In this document: positions 4,080-35,660 of the stretch, piece after piece | How positions within the stretch are numbered: the stretch's first letter is position 1 | Layout: the number at the start of each line of letters is the position of its first letter | NCBI RefSeq assembly: GCF_012999535.1 | Contig: NZ_JABBWV010000018.1 | Coordinates: 1-64,000, forward strand | Direction: 5' to 3' | Length of the DNA: 64,000 bases | Origin: Microbispora sp. H11081 | Lineage (GTDB): Bacteria > Actinomycetota > Actinomycetes > Streptosporangiales > Streptosporangiaceae | Position numbers and translations under genes: made by a program | The notes under the pieces: model-generated | The model's database searches: none | Seen by the model: the letters and a program-made list of their open reading frames with translations, nothing else | What the model was told of the DNA's origin: nothing

Positions 4080-4970
4080 TCACCGCGCCGGTTCCGTGAA
4101 GTCGCCGACGTGGTCCCTGGCCCACTGCGCGAACGGCAACGCGGGCCGGCCGGTCAGCCGTGCCACGGTGTCGGTGACCGGCTCGGGATTGGCCACCATA
4201 GCGGCCTGACCGGTGATGATGGAGGCGACCATCTCCACGGGCAGGCCGGGAAACAGCTCAGCGGCGGCCTCGGCGGAGTCGATCTCCTCGAAGCGCAGCG
4301 CTCGGCCGAGCGCCGCGCCGATGGCGGCGAGTTGCTCGACCTGCGTCAGCTGTTCTGGGCCGGTCAGGTGATAGGCCATGCGGTGGTGCCCGTCCTCGGT
4401 CAGGGCGCGCAGCGCCACCGCGGCGAGGTCGGCCTCGTGCACCAGGGCGCGCCTGGCATCGGGGAGAAACCAGCGCAGCACGTCAGACCGGCGGATCTGC
4501 CACGCCCAGGCCAGTGTGTTGGCGGCGAACCCGCTCGACCGCAAGAACGTGTACTCGGCGGCCGAGGCGGCGATCAGGCCCTCCAGATGGGCATGGGAGC
4601 CGATGATGCCCCCGTCAGGCTCGGCACGATGGTCTGGTTCGTCCGGCACGCCGTGGGCGGAGAGATAGACGATCCGCCGGGCACGCGCGGTCAGCGTCGG
4701 CACCAGGTTGCGCGCCGCCCTGTCGGCCGCCACGGACGGGAAGACGAGGAAGACCGCGTCCACGCCGTCCAGGGCGGCACTCAGCGTGTCGGGGATGGCG
4801 AGGTCGCCGCCGACGACCTCGGCTTTCGGGCCGAGGGCCGCCGACGCGGCCGCCGGATCGCGGGACAACGCACGTATCCGCACGTCTCCCGCACCGGCCA
4901 GTTGGGCGACGACCTGTCCGCCCACCCGACCGGTCGCCCCGGTCACCAAAACCGTCTGCTCGCTCGTCAT
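4080..4970 (-). CDS. NmrA-like NAD(P)-binding oxidoreductase
   Basis: The 296-residue protein opens with an extended-SDR nucleotide motif (VLVTGATGRVGGQVVAQL) and follows the NmrA/HSCARG pattern with no classical catalytic YxxxK, as expected for atypical SDRs that act as quinone reductases or redox sensors. It is divergent from a SoxR-like MerR regulator at 5082. A MerR-type promoter with a 19-bp spacer at 5026-5056 reads into it, so it is almost certainly the target of that regulator. In streptomycetes, SoxR targets include NmrA-type oxidoreductases, which supports the link. Confidence 0.85.
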   Translation of the reverse strand: MTSEQTVLVTGATGRVGGQVVAQLAGAGDVRIRALSRDPAAASAALGPKAEVVGGDLAIPDTLSAALDGVDAVFLVFPSVAADRAARNLVPTLTARARRIVYLSAHGVPDEPDHRAEPDGGIIGSHAHLEGLIAASAAEYTFLRSSGFAANTLAWAWQIRRSDVLRWFLPDARRALVHEADLAAVALRALTEDGHHRMAYHLTGPEQLTQVEQLAAIGAALGRALRFEEIDSAEAAAELFPGLPVEMVASIITGQAAMVANPEPVTDTVARLTGRPALPFAQWARDHVGDFTEPAR

Positions 4971-26547: not shown

Positions 26548-27010
26548 CTGGTTCCTCCTGTGCGCGTGGGCTGGGGGTCCGTGCGGGGGAGCGCCAGGCG
26601 AACGGCCGGCGACGGCGGGAGGCGGCCTCATCGGGCACTCCGAAAACGAAGGCTAGTTCCGCGTTTTTCGCCGGGTCAACGAAATCTGTCAATCGCCGGG
26701 GGCCGGCCGTTTTCCGGTAGGGGTCGGGCGGGGTTGCCCGCGCTATTTCTCCCGCCCGGATCGGGGCACCCGAAAAGTCCTCAGGTGTCCTGGATTGTCC
26801 TGACATGCTTGTGGGGCCGACAGGGGTTGTGAGAAAAGCGCGCGGAAGCCAATTCTGAATATGCCTCGCAAGGCCGGGAAATTCGCGCCGATACGAATTC
26901 CAGCGCGAAAAGGCCGCACTGTCGCGGGCAGCTCGATGCCATCGTTTCATGGCCGATTGCAATTCGTTTCCGACCGAGGCCGCTCAGGCCGGTTCGAAAG
27001 GCGGGTCAAC
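26548..27010. promoter_or_regulatory. 463-bp divergent regulatory region between MFS gene and NRPS operon
   Basis: No gene is convincing here. The right part (26640-27000) is less GC-rich than its surroundings, as expected for promoter and leader sequence. It includes a doubled TGTCCTG-like motif (near 26786 and 26797) and several AT-rich blocks (AATTCTGAATATG, GCAATTCG). The TrpF-like gene thus appears to have a leader of perhaps 100-200 bases. I could not fix -10/-35 elements with confidence. Confidence 0.5.
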
Positions 27011-27703
27011 ATGCAGGGACTTATCCAGGTGGCCGGTGTCATCGATCAGGCCGAGGCCGACCTGATCCGGGAGGAAGGCGCGGACTGGCTCGGCTTCGCC
27101 TTGCGGCTGCCGGCCAAGAACGAGGACCTGTCGGAGGCGGACGCCGCGGCGATCATCGACGAGATCCAGCCGGAGCACAGGGGTGTGGTGATCACCTATC
27201 TGACCGACGCGGAGGAGATCAAGACCTTCTGCGAGGAGCTCGGCGTCACCGCGATCCAGCTGCACGGAGACGTGCCCGTGGAGGAACTGCGCACCCTCCG
27301 GCGCATCGCGCCCGACCTGTACGTGCTCAAGAGCCTCGTAGTGAAGAAGGACAACCTCGACGAGCTGCGGACGATCGTCGACGAGGCGGCCGAGTGGGTC
27401 GACATGTTCATCACCGACAGCTTCAACCCGGCCACCGGCGCCAAGGGCGCCACCGGACTGCTGCACGACTGGTCGGTCAGCGCGGAACTGGTCAGGATCT
27501 CGCCCAAGCCGCTGATGCTCGCCGGCGGGCTGAACCCGGACAACGTCGCCGCCGCGATCGCCGAGGTCCGCCCGGCCGCCGTGGACGCGCACACCGGCCT
27601 GGAGGACCCGGTCACCCGCCGGAAGGACCGGCAGAAGGTGCGCACGTTCGTCGACGAGGCCCGCAGGGCCTTCGCGGAGCTGGGGGCGGGTGAGAAGGCA
27701 TGA
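27011..27703 (+). CDS. TrpF-like (phosphoribosylanthranilate isomerase fold) protein without the catalytic Cys
   Basis: The 230-residue TIM-barrel protein follows TrpF along its length: GADWLGF, VTAIQLHGDVP, ITDSFNPATGAKGATGLLHDWS, LMLAGGLNPDNV and AVDAHTGLED. TrpF normally begins KICG, whose Cys is the general base; here the motif is QVAG, so residue 8 is Ala. The general-acid Asp is kept (Asp136 in ITDS). It therefore probably cannot act as a normal tryptophan-pathway isomerase, although the phosphate-binding end is intact. ATG 27011 follows AAAGGCGGG; upstream codons are leader. It is the first gene of the NRPS operon and overlaps the next gene by ATGA. Confidence 0.8.
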   Translation: MQGLIQVAGVIDQAEADLIREEGADWLGFALRLPAKNEDLSEADAAAIIDEIQPEHRGVVITYLTDAEEIKTFCEELGVTAIQLHGDVPVEELRTLRRIAPDLYVLKSLVVKKDNLDELRTIVDEAAEWVDMFITDSFNPATGAKGATGLLHDWSVSAELVRISPKPLMLAGGLNPDNVAAAIAEVRPAAVDAHTGLEDPVTRRKDRQKVRTFVDEARRAFAELGAGEKA

Positions 27704-28371
27704 CGATGACGGCCGCGCCCGCGCTCGGCACCGTGCACCTGCTGCCGCAGACCCGCCAGCTCCGGGCGCTCCACACGATCATCAGGGACCGGCACGTGGC
27801 GCGCGAGCAGTTCGTCGCGGCGTCGGGCCGGATCATCCGCCAGCTCATGGAGACGGCGCTCGACCTCCTGCCGTACGAGCCGTGGGATGTCCCCACCCCG
27901 GTGGGCCGCACCTACCCCGGCCTGCGCCACGCGTCGGCGATCTGCGGCGTGCCGGTCGTACGCGCGGGGGAGAGCATGGAGCCCGAGCTGCGAGCGATCA
28001 TGCCGGGAGTGCCGATCGGCAAGATCCTGATCCAGCGCGACAAGGTGACGAAGCTGCCGCGGCTCTACTACTCCGCGCTGCCTGCGGACATCGACCGGCG
28101 GCAGGTGCTGCTGATGGACCCGATGCTGGCGACCGGCGGCACCGCGCTGGCCGCGATCGAGGTCCTGCTCGGCCGGGGCGTCGAGGTGGACGACATGGTG
28201 TTCGTCACCCTGCTGGCGGCGCCGGAGGGCATCGCGGCGGTCCACGCGCGCCACCCCGGCCTGCGGATCGTCACGTCGGCCGTCGAGGAACGGCTGAACG
28301 AGAACGCCTACATGGTCCCCGGCATCGGCGATTTCGGCGACCGGTACTTCGGCACGGACATCACGCGATGA
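27700..28371 (+). CDS. upp: Uracil phosphoribosyltransferase
   Basis: The PRPP-binding loop VLLMDPMLATGGTA, the uracil-pocket region near the end (YMVPGIGDFGDRYFG) and VVRAGESMEPEL place this in the UPRT family, which makes UMP from uracil and PRPP. The start ATG at 27700 overlaps the stop of the TrpF-like gene (ATGA), with a second ATG two codons on. Placed inside an indigoidine/C-nucleoside operon, it is more likely a pathway or self-resistance enzyme than the housekeeping copy. In the minimycin system a UPRT has been described as raising the UMP pool to protect the producer; I recall this from the literature and have not checked it here. Confidence 0.88.
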   Translation: MTMTAAPALGTVHLLPQTRQLRALHTIIRDRHVAREQFVAASGRIIRQLMETALDLLPYEPWDVPTPVGRTYPGLRHASAICGVPVVRAGESMEPELRAIMPGVPIGKILIQRDKVTKLPRLYYSALPADIDRRQVLLMDPMLATGGTALAAIEVLLGRGVEVDDMVFVTLLAAPEGIAAVHARHPGLRIVTSAVEERLNENAYMVPGIGDFGDRYFGTDITR

Positions 28372-28386
28372 ACGCCGGGGGAACAA

Positions 28387-31300
28387 ATGATCATCACTTC
28401 AGTCACTGAGGCGAGGCGGCAATCACAGGAGGACGTCTGCCTTCCCGATCTGCTCGAAGCACAGGCCGAGGCGCGCCCTGACGAGACCGCGGTCGTCTGC
28501 GGCGACCGGCGGCTGACCTTCCGCGAACTGGCGGAGGGCGGCGCGGCCCTCGGCGCCCACCTGCGGGAGCTCGGCGTCGGCCTCGACGAATGCGTGGGAC
28601 TGTTCGTCGAGCCGTCGATCGACCTGATGGTCGGGGTGTGGGGCATCCTGCGAGCGGGCGGCGCGTATCTCCCGCTGTCCCCCGAGTATCCCGAAGAGCG
28701 CCTCCGCTACATGATCGAGGACGCCGGCGTGCGGGTCGTCGTCACGCAGGACGAGCTCACGGGCAGGCTGACCGAGCTGGCGCCCGCGGGGACGAGGATC
28801 GTCACCCTCAAGGACGCGGCGCGGTCCGCCACCTCGCCGGGAGGCGACCGTCACCCCGGCCTGCGGCCGGGCAACCTGGCCTACGTCATCTATACCTCCG
28901 GCAGCACCGGCAAGCCGAAGGGGGTGATGATCGAGCACCGCAGCATCGTCAGCCAGATGCGGTGGCTGCGTTCCGGCTACGGCATCGGCCCCGGCAGGAC
29001 CATCCTGCAGAAGACGCCGATGAGCTTCGACGCGGCGCAGTGGGAGATCCTCGCGCCGGTCTGCGGCTCGGTGGTCGTCGTGGGCCCGCCGGGGGTCTAC
29101 CGGGACGCGGAGCGGCTCATCGACGTCATCAGGACGCACGACGTCACCACGCTGCAGTGCGTGCCGACGCTGCTGACGGCGCTCGTGGACACCGAGGAAC
29201 TGCACCGCTGCACGTCGCTGACGCAGGTCTTCACCGGAGGCGAGGTCCTGTCGAAGACGCTGGCGACGAGCTTCTTCGACACACTGCCCGGGTGCGAGCT
29301 GGTCAACCTGTACGGGCCCACGGAGTGCACGATCAACTCCTCCGCGTACACCGTGGACGGGGAGAGCGTCGGCGAGGGCCCGCACGCGATCTCGATCGGC
29401 GCGCCGGTCGACCACACCGCCTACCACATCCTCGATCTCGGCGGGTCCGAGGTGGCGGTCGGCGAGATCGGCGAGCTGTTCATCGGCGGCGTGCAGGTCG
29501 CCCGCGGCTACCTGCACAGGCCAGAGCTGACCGCCGAGCGGTTCGTGGACAACCCGTTCGGCGAGGGCAGGTTGTTCAGGACGGGCGACCTCGCGTACTG
29601 GAACGCCGACGGCACCGTCCAGTTCGTCGGCCGCGCGGACAACCAGATCAAGCTGCGCGGGTTCCGGGTCGAGCTGGACGAGATCAAGCTGGCGATCGAG
29701 ACCCACGAGTGGGTCAAGCACGCCGCCGTCATCGTCAAGGACGACCCGCGCACCGGATTCCAGAACCTGATCGCCTGCGTCGAGCTGAATCCCAAGGAAG
29801 CGGCCCTGATGGACCAGGGCAACCACGGCGCGCACCACCAGTCCAAGGCGAGCAGGCTCCAGGTCAAGGCGCAGCTGTCCAACCCCGGAGTCCGGGACGC
29901 CGCCGAACTCGACGGCAGGCCGGTCGTCGACCTGCCGGGCAGGCAGGCGACCGCGCGGCAACGCGCGCTCGCGTTCGCCCGCAAGACCTACCGGTTCTAC
30001 GAGGGAGGGGAGGTCGGCCGGGGCGACATCCTGAAGCTGCTGGCCAGGCGGGCCGAGGGCGCGGAGTCCCGCGGGCTGGACACCCTCGGCCTGGCGGAGC
30101 TCGGCGAGATCCTGCGCCACTTCGGCCAGCACATCAGCGAGGAGCGGCTGCTGCCGAAGTACGCGTACGCCTCGCCCGGGGCGTTGTACGCGACGCAGCT
30201 GTACCTGGAGATCACCGGGATGGACGGCCTGCCGTCCGGCTGCTACTACCACCACCCCGTGCACCACAGGCTCGTGCTGGTCGGGCCGGCCGCCGGAGGC
30301 CCTGAGCCTCGGGTGAAGCTGCACTTCGTCGGCAAGAAGCGGGCGATAGAACCGGTCTACAAGAACAACATCCGGGAGGTCCTGGAGATCGAGACCGGTC
30401 ACATGGTCGGTCTCTTCGAGGACGTGCTGCCCGCGCACGGCCTGGACATCGAAGCCCTGGAGTACGCGCCGGCCACGAAGGACCGCCTGGACTGCGCCGC
30501 CGCCGACGACTACTACCTCGGCACGTTCGAACTGGTCCCGTACGCCGGGCCGCGCCCCGACGAGGTCGACCTCTACGTCCAGGCGCATCCCGGCAAGGTC
30601 CCCGACCTGCGGGCGGGGCAGTACGCCTACGAGAACGGGCGGCTGCGGCTGATCTCCGACGAGCTCATACTCAAGAAGCAGGTCATCGCGATCAACCAGC
30701 AGGTCTACGACCGGGCGTCCATCGGCGTCTCGGTGGTCAGCAGGAACGACGAGGACTGGCTGCGCTACATCGACCTCGGCCGCGTGCTGCAGCGCCTGTC
30801 GATGAACGACGTCAACATCGGGTTCATGTCGTCCGGATACAGCTCGAAGTCCGGCGACGACCTGCCCTCGGCCCGCAGGATCGACGGCATCCTGCGCTCG
30901 CTCGGCCGGCCCGTCGGCCCGTCCTACTTCTTCATCGGCGGCCGGGTGAGCGACGAGCAGCGGTTGAGCGAGGGGATGAAGGAGGACGCAGTCCACATGA
31001 AGGGACCGGCGGAGATGATCAGGGACGACCTGATCAACTTCCTCCCGGACTACATGATCCCGAACAAGGTCGTCGTGCTCGACCGGCTCCCTTTCGCGCC
31101 GAACGGGAAGATCGACGCCAAGGCGCTGGCCGATTCCGACGCGACTAACGTGGACAACGACGACCGGCCGTACGTCGCGCCGCGGACTCTCACGGAACGC
31201 CGGATCGCCGAGCTGTGGAAGAAGGCGATGAAGCGGGAGACCGTGTCGATTGAGGACGACTTCTTCGCCGCGGGCGGGAATTCGCTCATCGCCGTCGGGC

Positions 31301-32475
31301 TGATCAACAAGATCAACCGTGAGTTCTGCGGCTCGCTGCCCCTCCAGGTGCTGTTCGACTGCCCCACGATCGAGAAGCTCGCCAGGCGGGTCGACGGAGG
31401 CGGCTCCGAGGCGTGCTCACGGCTGGTGCCGCTGCAGGGGGAGGGCGCGGGACGGCCCGTCTACTGCTGGCCCGGCCTCGGCGGATACACGATGAACCTG
31501 CGCACGCTGGCCGCCAGGATGGGCGCCGCCCGGCCCTTCTACGGCGTCCAGGCGTACGGGATCAACCCCGAGGAGGTCCCGTACGCGACCATCGGCGAGA
31601 TGGCGGCCGAGGACGTCAAGGCGATCCGGCGGGTGCAGCCGTCCGGGCCGTACACACTGTGGGGCTACTCCTTCGGCGCGCGCGTCGCGTTCGAGGCCGC
31701 CCACCAGTTGGAGCAGGCCGGCGAGCGGGTGGACCACCTGTTCCTGATCGCGCCCGGCTCGCCGAAGGTCGGCTCGGCGAGCGCCGCCGGGCACGAGCGC
31801 GAGGCGGGCTTCGGCGACCCGGCGTACGTGACGATCCTCTTCTCGGTCTTCGCGGGCACGATCAGCGGGCCGCTGCTGGAGCGGTGCCTGGCCGAGGCCG
31901 TGGACGAGGAGAGCTTCGCGGCCTTCGTCCACCGCAACTTCCCCGAACTGGACGTCGACCTGGTGCGCCGGATCACGCGTGTGGTGGCGGAGACGTTCGA
32001 GTTCAGCTACACCTTCCGCGAGCTGGCCAGGCGGCGGATCGCCGCGCCGATCACCATCTTCAAGGCCAGGGGCGACGACTACTCGTTCCTGGAGAACAGC
32101 AGCGGCTACTCGGCGACGCCGCCGGTGGTCGTCGACCTGGAAGCCGATCACTACGGCCTGCTCAGGGAGCCGGACATCGACGAGCTGGCCGAGGCCATCG
32201 GGGATCGTCTCGGGACCCACCGTAAGGAGATCATCATGCCGCACGTGAGCATCAAGCACTTCCCCGTGCCCCTCAGCGAGCAGCAGCACTCCGAGCTGGT
32301 CGCGGCCGTGACCAAGGCGATGACGAGCGCCTTCGGATGCGAGGAGGGCTCGGTGTCGATCATCCTGGAGCCGGTCGCGAAGGAGCTGTGGGACGAGAAG
32401 GTCTACATCCCGGAGATCCTCAACCAGAAGCACCGGCTGAACAAGCTGCCCAACTACGGCCCGGCCGGGAACTGA
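28387..32475 (+). CDS. indC: Indigoidine synthetase-type NRPS (A-Ox-T-TE) fused to a PptA-like tautomerase
   Basis: The 1362-residue protein closely follows BpsA/IndC. An adenylation domain for L-glutamine (about 20-475; IYTSGSTGKPKGVMIEHRS) is interrupted by an FMN-type oxidase domain (about 480-870; CYYHHPVHHRLVLV, YDRASIGVSV). Adenylation resumes to Lys908 (NGKIDAKAL), followed by a thiolation domain with Ser966 (GGNSL) and a thioesterase with Ser1095 (GYSFGA) and His1255. It should oxidise and cyclise glutamine to 5-aminopyridinedione, which dimerises to the blue pigment. BpsA ends after the thioesterase; here the frame runs on through a 79-residue tautomerase domain (1284-1362). Confidence 0.92.
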   Translation: MIITSVTEARRQSQEDVCLPDLLEAQAEARPDETAVVCGDRRLTFRELAEGGAALGAHLRELGVGLDECVGLFVEPSIDLMVGVWGILRAGGAYLPLSPEYPEERLRYMIEDAGVRVVVTQDELTGRLTELAPAGTRIVTLKDAARSATSPGGDRHPGLRPGNLAYVIYTSGSTGKPKGVMIEHRSIVSQMRWLRSGYGIGPGRTILQKTPMSFDAAQWEILAPVCGSVVVVGPPGVYRDAERLIDVIRTHDVTTLQCVPTLLTALVDTEELHRCTSLTQVFTGGEVLSKTLATSFFDTLPGCELVNLYGPTECTINSSAYTVDGESVGEGPHAISIGAPVDHTAYHILDLGGSEVAVGEIGELFIGGVQVARGYLHRPELTAERFVDNPFGEGRLFRTGDLAYWNADGTVQFVGRADNQIKLRGFRVELDEIKLAIETHEWVKHAAVIVKDDPRTGFQNLIACVELNPKEAALMDQGNHGAHHQSKASRLQVKAQLSNPGVRDAAELDGRPVVDLPGRQATARQRALAFARKTYRFYEGGEVGRGDILKLLARRAEGAESRGLDTLGLAELGEILRHFGQHISEERLLPKYAYASPGALYATQLYLEITGMDGLPSGCYYHHPVHHRLVLVGPAAGGPEPRVKLHFVGKKRAIEPVYKNNIREVLEIETGHMVGLFEDVLPAHGLDIEALEYAPATKDRLDCAAADDYYLGTFELVPYAGPRPDEVDLYVQAHPGKVPDLRAGQYAYENGRLRLISDELILKKQVIAINQQVYDRASIGVSVVSRNDEDWLRYIDLGRVLQRLSMNDVNIGFMSSGYSSKSGDDLPSARRIDGILRSLGRPVGPSYFFIGGRVSDEQRLSEGMKEDAVHMKGPAEMIRDDLINFLPDYMIPNKVVVLDRLPFAPNGKIDAKALADSDATNVDNDDRPYVAPRTLTERRIAELWKKAMKRETVSIEDDFFAAGGNSLIAVGLINKINREFCGSLPLQVLFDCPTIEKLARRVDGGGSEACSRLVPLQGEGAGRPVYCWPGLGGYTMNLRTLAARMGAARPFYGVQAYGINPEEVPYATIGEMAAEDVKAIRRVQPSGPYTLWGYSFGARVAFEAAHQLEQAGERVDHLFLIAPGSPKVGSASAAGHEREAGFGDPAYVTILFSVFAGTISGPLLERCLAEAVDEESFAAFVHRNFPELDVDLVRRITRVVAETFEFSYTFRELARRRIAAPITIFKARGDDYSFLENSSGYSATPPVVVDLEADHYGLLREPDIDELAEAIGDRLGTHRKEIIMPHVSIKHFPVPLSEQQHSELVAAVTKAMTSAFGCEEGSVSIILEPVAKELWDEKVYIPEILNQKHRLNKLPNYGPAGN
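32236..32475 (+). CDS. Tautomerase (PptA/4-oxalocrotonate type), internal in-frame start within the NRPS gene
   Basis: The last 79 codons of the NRPS gene encode MPHVSIKHFPVPLSEQQ..., matching the PptA (YdcE) tautomerases of about 77 residues in length and ending. In this superfamily the catalytic base is the free N-terminal proline exposed by Met removal. The internal ATG at 32236 is followed by a Pro codon and preceded by AAGGAG (32224-32229) six bases upstream, an ideal ribosome binding site. The linker codons HRKEII that join it to the thioesterase are simply this leader read as protein. A separately translated, active tautomerase is therefore likely in addition to, or in place of, the fusion. 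Confidence 0.65.
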   Translation: MPHVSIKHFPVPLSEQQHSELVAAVTKAMTSAFGCEEGSVSIILEPVAKELWDEKVYIPEILNQKHRLNKLPNYGPAGN

Positions 32476-32484
32476 GGGGCGACG

Positions 32485-33426
32485 ATGACTCGCAATCACG
32501 GGCGCGTCCCGCTGGTGTTCAGCGAGGAGGTCGCGGACGCCCTCGCCGAGGGCCGGCCGGTGGTGGCGCTGGAGTCGAACGTCATCACCCACGGCCTGCC
32601 CTATCCGGACAACGCCGCCACCGCGCGCAAGGTCGAGGACGCGGTGCGCGCCGGGGGCGCGGTCCCGGCCACGATCTGCGTCGAGGGCGGCAGGATCAGG
32701 GCCGGCATGACGGACGAGGACGTCGAGCGGTTCGCCTCGACGCCCGGAATCCCCAAGGTCAGCAGCAGGGACCTGCCGGTGGTCCTGGCCCAGGGCGGGC
32801 TCGGCGCGCTGACGGTGGCCAGTTCGGTGGTGGCGGCGGAAATCGCCGGCATCCCGTTCTTCTCGTCGGCCGGCATCGGCGGTGTGCACCGGGGCGCGGA
32901 GAAGACGATGGACGTCTCCTCCGACCTGATCCAGTTCACCCGGTCGAAGGTGGCGGTCGTCTGCGCGGGGGCCAAGAGCATCCTCGATCTGGGTCTGACC
33001 ATGGAGTTCCTGGAGACCCACTGCGTGCCGGTGGTGTCGTACCGGTCGGACGACTTCCCCGCGTTCTACTGCGTGTCCAGCGGCATCCGCAGCCCGCAGC
33101 GGCTGGACGACGAGGCGGTGATCGCCCGGGCGGTGGAGAACCACTGGGCGCTGGGCAACCACAGCTCCTTCCTGATCACCACCCCCGTGCGGGAGGAGGA
33201 CGCGATCGACGCGTCGGAGGTGGACGCCGTCATCACCGGCGCGATCGCCGCCGCCGAGCGGGACGGGGTCCGCGGCAACGCGATCACGAAGTACCTCATG
33301 CGCGCCGTGGACGCGGCCACCGAGGGCCGGTCGTCCAGGGCGAACATGTCCGTGCTCGTCAGCACCGCCGAGGTCGGCGGCCGGCTGGCGGCGGCCCACG
33401 CGCGGTATCTGCGGGAGACCGCCTGA
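32485..33426 (+). CDS. indA: Pseudouridine-5'-phosphate glycosidase (IndA/PsuG family; candidate C-glycosynthase)
   Basis: The 313-residue protein shows the full PsuG pattern: [15 protein letters not shown] (catalytic Glu), [10 protein letters not shown] (Lys), [21 protein letters not shown] (His), [10 protein letters not shown] (the second Lys) and [11 protein letters not shown] (Asn). PsuG cleaves or forms the C1'-C5 bond of pseudouridine 5'-phosphate; homologues (AlnA in alnumycin, IndA-type proteins in C-nucleoside pathways) join ribose 5-phosphate to other carbon acceptors. Immediately after the indigoidine-type NRPS (9-bp gap), it probably C-ribosylates an NRPS-derived ring. PsuG partners such as PsuK or a HAD phosphatase are absent nearby. 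Confidence 0.9.
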
Positions 33427-33638: not shown

Positions 33639-35660
33639 ATGACGACCCGGAATCCTGACACTGGGAGTCCAACGAGGCGGCGTTCCGGCCCCCGGCTGAT
33701 CGGTCGCGCGTTCGCGGCCGGTCTCGTGCTGGCGACCGCCGTCGTGACGGCGGGAGCGACGGCCGCCGGCGCCGCGCCTGGCCACGGCGACCAGGCCGGC
33801 CAAGGCGCGCACGGCAACCCCGCCGGTCCGGCGGGTCCAGGGGGTCCCGGGGGTCCGGGGGGTCCGGGGGGTCCGGGGGGTCCGGGGAACCACGGACCCG
33901 TCGACCTGGGGCCGAACGTCACCGTCTTCGACCCGAGCATGCCGGTCGACCAGATCCAGGCGACCCTGGACGCGGCGCACGCCGCCAGGGTCGACGACGA
34001 GATGGGCACCGAGCGGCACGCCTACCTCTTCAGGCCGGGCACGTACGGCACCGCCGAACGCCCCCTCCAGATCAAGGTCGGTTACTACACCGAGATCGCC
34101 GGCCTGGGCGCCTCGCCCACCGACGTCGTCATCAACGGCAAGGTCGAGGTCTACAACCGCTGCCTGGAGAACAACGGCACAGGCAACTGCCTCGCGCTCG
34201 TCAACTTCTGGCGCACGCTGTCGAATCTCTCGATCAACGTCAACGCGGCGGGCCAGGACGGTTGCCGCCAGTCGGCGAACTTCTGGGCCGTCTCCCAGGC
34301 CGTCTCCATGCGCCGCCTCAACGTCACGGGCGGGAGTCTGTCGCTGATGGACTACTGCACGGCCGGCCCGCAGTACGCCAGTGGCGGCTTCATCGCCGAC
34401 TCCCGGCTGCCGTCCGTCACCAACGGCTCACAGCAGCAGTGGCTGACCCGCAACACCGAGGTCGCCGGGTGGTCCAACGCCGTGTGGAACCAGGTCTTCT
34501 CGGGCGTCACAGGCGCGCCCGACGACTCCGGCTTCCCCGACCCGCCGTACACGACGATCGAGAAGACCCCGCTCAGCCGGGAGAAGCCCTTCCTGTTCAC
34601 CGACCCGCAGGGCAGGCTCGCCGTCCGCGTGCCGGCCGCCGCGCGGAACACGAGCGGCGTCACGTGGGCCGAGGGCATGACGCCGGGCCGTACGGTCCCG
34701 CTGTCGGACTTCTTCGTCGCGAAGCCGTCCGACTCCGTGCAGGTCATCAACAGCCAGCTCGCGCGGGGCAAGAACCTGCTGCTCACGCCGGGCGTGTACG
34801 ACGTCGCGCGGAGCATCGAGGTCAAGCGGCCCGGCACGGTGGTCCTCGGCATCGGGCACGCCACGCTCACCGCGGTGGGCGGCGCGGTCCCGGTCGACGT
34901 CGCCGACGTCCCCGGCGCGGTCGTCGCCGGAGTCACCATCGACGCGGGCACGCAGAAGTCGCCGGTGCTGCTGCTGGTGGGCAAGGAGCACGGTGGGCCA
35001 GGCGGCAAGCACGGCCATCGGGCGCCGGGGAACGACCCGACGACCCTGTCCGACGTGTACTTCCGCGTCGGCGGCCCGCACGTCGGCAAGACCGAGATCG
35101 CTCTCGAGGTCAACAGCGACGACGTGCTGATCGACCACACCTGGGTGTGGCGCGCCGACCACGGCGTCGAGGGCTTCACCGACACCGAGCGCTGGAACAC
35201 CAACATCGGCCGCTACGGCGCGGTCGTCAACGGCGACCGCGTGACGGCGACCGGCCTGTTCGTCGAGCACTTCCAGCGCTACAACACGGTGTGGAACGGC
35301 GAGGACGGCACGACGATCCTCTACCAGAACGAACTGCCGTACGACCCGCCCACCCAGGCCGACTGGATGAACGGCGACGTCGAGGGCTACGCCGGCTACA
35401 AGGTCGGCGACCGGGTGAAGAGGCACCAGCTCTACGGCGCGGGCGTCTACGTCTACAACCGGAACAATCCGCAGATCCACACCGAGAACGGCTTCGAGGT
35501 CCCGCGGACGCCGGGCGTGAAGCTGCACCACATCATGACCGTCAACCTCGACGCGGGGACGATCGACCACGTCGTCAACGGCGTCGGCGACGCGGCCGAC
35601 ACGACCAAGGTCGGCGCGCCGCAGTTCATCGTGGACTACCCGGCCCCGGCGGCCCAGTAG
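33639..35660 (+). CDS. Secreted right-handed beta-helix protein with collagen-like linker
   Basis: A signal peptide (ends TAAGAAPG) is followed by a (GGP)n collagen-like linker at about residues 60-84 and then some 580 residues of parallel beta-helix sequence: short repeats such as AYLFRPGTYGTAERPLQIKVGYYTEIAGLG and LLLTPGVYDVARSIEVKRPGTVVLGIG. The pattern fits proteins annotated as adenylyl-cyclase or GH55-like in actinomycetes, which probably act on extracellular beta-glucan; the enzyme activity is not proven. A perfect LacI-type palindrome lies just upstream, which favours carbohydrate-responsive control. A hairpin follows the stop. Confidence 0.78.
   Translation: MTTRNPDTGSPTRRRSGPRLIGRAFAAGLVLATAVVTAGATAAGAAPGHGDQAGQGAHGNPAGPAGPGGPGGPGGPGGPGGPGNHGPVDLGPNVTVFDPSMPVDQIQATLDAAHAARVDDEMGTERHAYLFRPGTYGTAERPLQIKVGYYTEIAGLGASPTDVVINGKVEVYNRCLENNGTGNCLALVNFWRTLSNLSINVNAAGQDGCRQSANFWAVSQAVSMRRLNVTGGSLSLMDYCTAGPQYASGGFIADSRLPSVTNGSQQQWLTRNTEVAGWSNAVWNQVFSGVTGAPDDSGFPDPPYTTIEKTPLSREKPFLFTDPQGRLAVRVPAAARNTSGVTWAEGMTPGRTVPLSDFFVAKPSDSVQVINSQLARGKNLLLTPGVYDVARSIEVKRPGTVVLGIGHATLTAVGGAVPVDVADVPGAVVAGVTIDAGTQKSPVLLLVGKEHGGPGGKHGHRAPGNDPTTLSDVYFRVGGPHVGKTEIALEVNSDDVLIDHTWVWRADHGVEGFTDTERWNTNIGRYGAVVNGDRVTATGLFVEHFQRYNTVWNGEDGTTILYQNELPYDPPTQADWMNGDVEGYAGYKVGDRVKRHQLYGAGVYVYNRNNPQIHTENGFEVPRTPGVKLHHIMTVNLDAGTIDHVVNGVGDAADTTKVGAPQFIVDYPAPAAQ
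33825..33888. repeat. 9-bp GGGTCCGGG tandem repeats (Gly-Pro linker)
   Basis: The unit GGGGGTCCG recurs five to six times and encodes Gly-Gly-Pro repeats. Homogeneous guanine runs make this array prone to slippage and to assembly error. Confidence 0.92.

Follow-up and report, generated by a model that had tools for sequence, protein, structure and literature searches.

Tautomerases fused to indigoidine-type nonribosomal peptide synthetases (NRPSs) are already published and are not new in themselves. According to the accessible portions of the relevant papers, the synthetase IndC of Streptomyces chromofuscus carries a fused tautomerase and S. albus J1074 has a separate one (PMC3992020), a 2025 paper discusses Streptomyces and myxobacterial clusters with and without the fusion (PMC12766979), and a survey of the tautomerase superfamily describes a tautomerase motif appended to an indigoidine synthetase (PMC5818174). 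In minimycin biosynthesis, as presented in the available part of a review, the synthetase MinA has the domain order A-Ox-T-TE-Tau and is accompanied by MinB (C-glycosylation), MinC and MinD (a uracil phosphoribosyltransferase, self-resistance); the Tau domain is proposed to turn the released ring into the tautomer used by MinB (PMC8724604). Here we analyse a fused gene of this type in a stretch of 64,000 nt from Microbispora sp. H11081 (contig NZ_JABBWV010000018.1, positions 1 to 64,000, referred to as the window), in which a Shine-Dalgarno (SD) sequence and an in-frame start codon lie between the thioesterase (TE) and the tautomerase.

As far as the published descriptions at hand extend, the window gene resembles MinA of S. 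hygroscopicus JCM 4712 and IndC of S. chromofuscus in its apparent A-Ox-T-TE-Tau order and in its MinB- and MinD-type neighbours. It differs from the minimycin cluster in that a TrpF-like gene is present, while MinC (a phosphatase domain plus a C-terminal domain) was not seen among the operon genes and six further window open reading frames (ORFs) scanned between 24.0 and 37.9 kb. The examined portions of the open-licence literature on fused indigoidine and minimycin synthetases contain no mention of an internal start. From a comparison of the window gene with its relatives, we consider it likely that a translationally coupled gene pair lost its stop codon and kept the start and SD of the second gene, so that one gene would give both an NRPS-tautomerase fusion and a free tautomerase with proline at its N-terminus (Pro-1).

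The fused open reading frame and its linker

The fused ORF at 28387-32475 (forward strand, as are all features given below by window position) runs from ATG to TGA and encodes 1362 aa. The frame and its translation are free of stops, and the NRPS continues in frame into a PptA-like tautomerase. The Pfam models AMP-binding (PF00501, residues 23-376), PP-binding (PF00550, 938-1002) and Thioesterase (PF00975, best stretch 1023-1139) all exceed their cut-offs, placing A, T and TE within a single chain. The putative Ox domain was seen only as a region (481-860) common to related loci at 52-94% identity, and no Pfam model matched this region. PF01361 matched the tautomerase at residues 1285-1335, scoring 26.0 bits within the fusion; the isolated domain scored 29.1 bits, and the cut-off is 22. 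PF14552 had no match in the same genome, and the domain family is PF01361. Its closest solved relative is E. coli YdcE/PptA (1gyj; also 1gyx and 1gyy), with a profile E value of 1.2e-15. Since the PptA equivalog model NF002324 gave 70.8 bits, under its cut-off of 83, the domain is called PptA-like rather than PptA.

The TE domain occupies 31453-32217. Its natural end was judged from relatives with separate genes, where it reads ...RLTP or ...RLGA, and this end serves as the reference for the start of the linker. Six codons (HRKEII, 32218-32235) lie between the TE end and the internal ATG. They include the SD core AAGGAG at 32224-32229, with a spacer of 6 nt to the ATG. The internal ORF (32236-32475) begins with ATG CCG at 32236 and encodes a tautomerase of 79 aa including the start Met, with Pro next. 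A first-pass annotation of the window had described both an NRPS without a stop before the tautomerase and a linker holding AAGGAG ahead of ATG-CCG; the second description is borne out by the sequence, and the first by the open frame of 1362 aa and by the recurrence of the fusion in relatives.

TE and tautomerase were modelled together (348 residues, from 19 alignment rows), with a mean pLDDT of 77.0 and a pTM of 0.69. Model residues 264-270, which comprise the linker and Met 270, have pLDDT below 50 and are predicted to be disordered; the first tautomerase strand is at residues 272-277. In the fusion the Pro nitrogen is an amide, which follows from chemistry and not from the model, and by the usual mechanism the fused copy would therefore probably be inactive. 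On the experimental evidence so far, according to the accessible part of the survey, the N-terminal Pro seems to be mechanistically imperative in the superfamily (PMC5818174).

Collection of related junctions

The tautomerase query was a 10-row alignment (A1), used with an E threshold of 1e-10 in the own family of the window and 1e-15 in the other draws of genomes; the draws overlap. Genomes with a match numbered 19 of 250 in the own family, 11 of 394 in the class draw, 18 of 229 in the order draw, 40 of 392 in the Streptomyces draw, 26 of 239 in the family of Streptomyces, 8 of 220 in the family of Phytohabitans and 21 of 220 in the family of Amycolatopsis. A plasmid search with a TE plus tautomerase query gave 223 matching records, of which 28 covered at least 80% of the query, and six records were retrieved. 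A first set of 102 loci held 39 distinct fused and 42 distinct separate junctions, 11 loci with no TE in reach and 10 duplicates (8 fused, 2 separate). A second set of 56 loci held 28 distinct new ones (9 fused, 16 separate, 3 with no TE) and 28 duplicates.

A fusion was called only if TE and tautomerase lay in one frame with no stop between them. An open frame ahead of the tautomerase was rejected as proof of fusion, since that frame differs from the TE frame in L012, L043, L062, L069, L070, L125, L143, L146 and L149, and also in L139. In locus L054 (L106, about 4586-4601, reverse strand) the frame changes inside the TE, which is either an error or a broken gene; this locus formed a long branch in the first TE tree and was dropped, and the tree was rebuilt. 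The final rows are 47 fused and 58 separate junctions, 105 in all. Eight fused groups were assigned by hand from the TE tree, in which some branches between groups are weakly supported.

Retention of the internal start codon

A standard start codon (ATG, GTG or TTG) stands directly before the catalytic Pro codon in 45 of the 47 fused junctions. The codons at this position are ATG in 29, GTG in 14, TTG in two, CTG in one and CGC in one; the 58 separate genes have ATG (37) or GTG (21). Where Val is found at the start position it is always encoded by GTG (14/14), whereas GTG accounts for 145 of the 387 Val codons at other positions of these rows, and the chance of 14/14 is about 1e-6 in a naive calculation that ignores relatedness. 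At codon 4 of the tautomerase the same GTG rows have GTC in nine, ATC in four and GTG in one. TTG accounts for 3% of Leu codons.

By group, every row has a standard start in six of the eight fused groups, as do 22 of the 23 rows of the main group, where L083 is the exception; the start is lost in the group consisting of the single row L080. Switches between ATG and GTG occur inside one fused group. Nine junctions were sampled after the pattern had been seen, including those of S. clavuligerus pSCL4, an S. mirabilis plasmid and the Rhizobium plasmids pAtK84c and pTiK1_93. The start is ATG or GTG in all nine, and their SD energies lie between -7.9 and -11.2 kcal/mol. The excluded L054 also has a GTG start and an SD of -7.7, in line with the pattern. 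The L080 tautomerase is, in addition, shortened by a stop. The fused tautomerase at L104 (8973-9119) no longer has an internal start or an SD and is stop-shortened; a free tautomerase lies on another contig of that genome.

The Shine-Dalgarno sequence and folding of the junction

SD energy was calculated as that of the duplex with what we take to be the anti-SD tail sequence, over positions -20 to -4. The mean was -8.9 kcal/mol at fused junctions, -9.9 at separate ones and -3.5 at other TE codons, and 40 of the 47 fused junctions rank in the top 10% when compared with the positions of their own TE. The two weakest SDs among the 47 belong to the junctions that lack a standard start (L080, +0.7; L083, -3.2). 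In the main clade, counted over 22 of its 23 rows with L083 left out, columns -11 to -8 are A in 21, G in 22, G in 22 and A in 21 rows, and most other linker columns vary. Proteolysis before the Pro, with Met removed, would likewise yield a free N-terminal Pro without internal initiation, and the disorder predicted for the linker would suit such a cut. However, linker residues differ among groups, and what is kept are the letters of the start codon and the SD-like purines; we believe that release by proteolysis is very improbable.

Over 50 nt, the mean folding energy was -7.0 kcal/mol around the fused junction, -16.4 in the TE and -8.5 at separate tautomerase starts. Synonymous recodings of the junction fold at -9.25 on average versus -7.18 observed. 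The observed mean is weaker than that of the recodings in all eight groups, the difference in some being about 1 kcal/mol; by row, the observed fold is weaker in 35 of the 47, stronger in 11 and equal in one. Low folding of the junction is partly due to amino-acid composition. Of the two rows without a standard start, L083 is not relaxed (-11.4 versus -10.3 for its recodings), and L080 is relaxed despite its lost start.

Evidence against internal initiation

Several results weigh against a translated internal start. When amino acids were held fixed and codons were drawn by TE codon usage, the synonymous null gave a mean SD energy of -8.3 (39 rows); the observed SD strength is not above this null and thus failed as evidence beyond the amino acids. 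The closeness of null and observed values means that residues such as KE, QE and EE are enough to account for the SD, and either the linker residues are there for the SD or the SD is there from the residues. The SD of the window gene ranks only fifth by energy among 60 in-frame NTG codons and third among 20 ATG codons. Its junction (L016) folds at -7.7 versus -7.2 kcal/mol for the recodings and is not more open (z 0.36). Folding of the window junction alone, being ordinary, was rejected as a signal, and a signal is present only across the set. An internal site beyond chance is therefore not evident from the window gene alone, but it is evident across the relatives. The fused rows are themselves related and not independent, the GTG rows falling in four groups and the two TTG rows being sisters. 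The query alignment has Met at its first column in 10 of 10 rows and could slightly favour Met. The superfamily survey, in its accessible part, also lists uncharacterised members without Pro-1, and a mechanism without Pro-1 is possible (PMC5818174). The main counter-example to a free form that is always needed is L083. This junction has CTG and no SD, yet its fused tautomerase domain is well conserved, and the L083 genome has no other tautomerase at E 0.01.

The synonymous null and the conserved domain of L083 also support a different explanation, in which only the fusion is made, its tautomerase domain is active or has a structural role with no free N-terminus, and the start and SD are relics or by-products of the amino-acid sequence. 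It is in keeping with the published pathway, where, in the available part of the review, Tau is drawn as a domain that acts in cis (PMC8724604). What a requirement on the protein leaves unexplained is GTG in 14 of 14 Val codons at the start position, TTG among the Leu codons, the switches between ATG and GTG, and the open RNA. We regard production of the fusion alone as unlikely.

Recurrence of the fusion and its relation to separate gene pairs

Within Microbispora, 10 of 15 genomes (the source of the window included) have a match, and each of the ten has a fused copy; five have no match. Some Microbispora genomes hold an extra, separate tautomerase of a second type (L027-L030), and L031 has no TE in reach. 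In-frame fusions also occur in Sphaerimonospora, Streptomyces and Phytohabitans, in the families of Phytohabitans and Amycolatopsis, and on Rhizobium plasmids. The search for the same fusion gave 47 distinct fused junctions in all, the window's own included, in Actinomycetota and on Rhizobium plasmids. Their recurrence in many genomes, within the genus and in other genera, refutes a sequencing or assembly error as the source of the missing stop, and we rejected this explanation as having a negligible probability.

On the TE tree of 105 rows the fused or separate state needs seven changes (7-9 in bootstrap trees), and at least three are forced by starred branches; by the tree program's own note the support values are rough. 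The seven changes suggest that the fusion arose, or was lost, on several occasions. Between separate genes of a pair the distance runs from 268 nt down to an overlap. In L125 the overlap is TGATG, in L143 and L146 the tautomerase start precedes the beginning of the TE stop by 10 nt, and in L095 the overlap is 13 nt. Seen beside these overlapping pairs, the fusion looks like the far end of translational coupling.

The same overlapping pairs (L125, L143, L146 and L095) make the loss of a stop a small step, and the start and SD are kept while the protein sequence of the linker varies. Both facts would fit an explanation in which the free tautomerase alone matters, the loss of the stop was neutral and the NRPS-borne copy has no function. 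A functionless copy does not sit easily with the in-frame fusion, which is unbroken in all 23 rows of the main fused clade, nor with linkers of 51-90 nt that remain open in several rows. We consider this explanation rather unlikely, though it is the strongest competitor to a gene that yields both proteins.

The codon before AAG (window 32221-32229; also read in L001-L006, L015, L016, L018 and L024) is GGT, CGT, AGT or TGT. These 10 rows all end in T before AAG, giving GTAAGGAG with an out-of-frame TAA; L007 has GAC instead. The out-of-frame TAA might be a relic of the old stop.

Proposed origin and role of the two products

We propose that a coupled NRPS-tautomerase gene pair lost its intervening stop, whereupon ribosomes would read through to produce the A-Ox-T-TE-Tau fusion, and that the tautomerase's own SD and start codon remained inside the linker. 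Ribosomes would also initiate at 32236 and produce a free tautomerase of 79 codons. Removal of Met from this product of about 9 kDa would leave PHVSIKHF as its first residues and expose the N-terminal Pro, the superfamily's catalytic base. The free tautomerase would probably act on the ring released by the TE and help to hand it over to the Indigoidine_A/MinB-type enzyme encoded next. The fused copy may tether free subunits or co-assemble with them near the TE, or it may be a by-product of the loss of the stop.

That one frame could give both a fusion and a free enzyme had been suggested in the first-pass annotation. The suggestion has gained ground through the start, SD and open RNA kept across several fused groups and through the nine later junctions, all of which agree. 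The sequences show the frame, the fusion, the kept start and SD, the open junction RNA and several fused groups, whereas the existence of both products, catalysis by the free one only, its tethering by the fused copy and the released ring as substrate are what we infer. The annotation had also suggested, as a possibility, that the tautomerase acts on the 5-aminopyridinedione product. Such a tautomerising role is not new, having been proposed for the Tau domain of minimycin biosynthesis in the accessible part of the review (PMC8724604). The further idea that the enzyme steers the product to monomer or dimer is a guess; in the published proposal the tautomer serves C-glycosylation by MinB.

A bolder form of the proposal, possible but doubtful, is that the Tau domain is catalytically silent in cis and acts as an assembly subunit capturing free Pro-1 copies made from the internal start, this two-product design having been selected in several fused groups of Actinomycetota and Alphaproteobacteria. 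If this were true, diagrams showing the tautomerase as active in cis on the NRPS would have to be redrawn, and heterologous constructs with a recoded linker would lose the active tautomerase unnoticed. Product chemistry, namely the free N-terminal Pro, would then explain why an internal start survived gene fusion more than once.

Neighbouring genes

Upstream in the operon lie a TrpF-like gene (ORF 26861-27703, with homology from about 27011) and a MinD-like uracil phosphoribosyltransferase gene (27700-28371). An Indigoidine_A protein of the pseudouridine-5'-phosphate glycosidase type, MinB-like, is encoded at 32485-33426, 9 nt downstream of the fused ORF. An identical gene set in the same order was found at L001-L007 (Microbispora), L015 (Sphaerimonospora), L104 and L105, and the separate-gene copies L012 and L013 are flanked by the same set in the same order. 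This set is absent from the examined flanks of L008, L009 and L010. L014 of Photobacterium has the same genes minus TrpF in a different layout.

The TrpF-like protein (27011-27703) has IQVAG where aligned phosphoribosylanthranilate isomerases have VKICG. The Cys of VKICG is presumably the catalytic base of TrpF, and the window protein has Ala in its place; it may carry out another reaction in this pathway. Traits of the min cluster that are present comprise an NRPS with Tau, an Indigoidine_A protein (MinB-type) and a uracil phosphoribosyltransferase (MinD-type). We infer that the locus is a pigment or C-ribosylation branch, and it is not filed here as a minimycin cluster. Downstream of the operon, a window ORF of 673 aa (33639-35660) has no Pfam match at E 1e-5.

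The same genome has, on contig C12 (L107, 5469-9702), a second indigoidine-synthetase-like NRPS whose tautomerase is separate, with an L-amino-acid-ligase-type protein and a PALP-type pyridoxal phosphate enzyme as neighbours. Similar-looking neighbours stand beside the free tautomerase L078 in another genome (L103). On the Rhizobium plasmids pAtK84c and pTiK1_93 (L161, 1498-9208; L162, 1474-9170), cysteine-synthase-type and nickel-transport genes lie beside the fused synthetase. A further protein is encoded beside it on both plasmids, which in L162 is a DMT transporter, and L162 also has a cupin gene.

Comparison with known systems

The nearest precedent is LmbN of Streptomyces lincolnensis, in which, according to the available portion of the report, an NRPS-related domain and a second enzyme are likewise joined with a ribosome binding site and start kept in frame. 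Western blots of the native strain and of S. coelicolor revealed both LmbN products, and the short one is reported to persist when translation of the upstream part is stopped (PMC4351081). The proteins are unrelated to those studied here, being a carrier protein and an isomerase, and the start was read there as the mark of a recent fusion; a chemical need for a free N-terminus is not named in the accessible part of PMC4351081, unlike the Pro-1 case considered here. In the Rpn genes-within-genes, as described in the part of the report at hand, the C-terminal part is likewise made from an internal ribosome binding site and start, and short and long forms assemble into a tetramer. The proteins are different ones, and the short form inhibits the nuclease (PMC10327210). 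Cas11b of Haloferax volcanii, in the accessible portion of its description, also arises by in-frame internal translation, from cas8b, and works as a subunit with the long product, although the setting is an archaeal CRISPR complex (PMC11899642). Among tautomerases, igiF of Leisingera, which lies in an indigoidine operon, encodes a 4-oxalocrotonate tautomerase and, in the available account, is a free-standing gene, unlike the fusion in the window (PMC5014874). E. coli YdcE/PptA is also encoded by a free-standing gene, whereas the tautomerase described here is fused to its synthetase.

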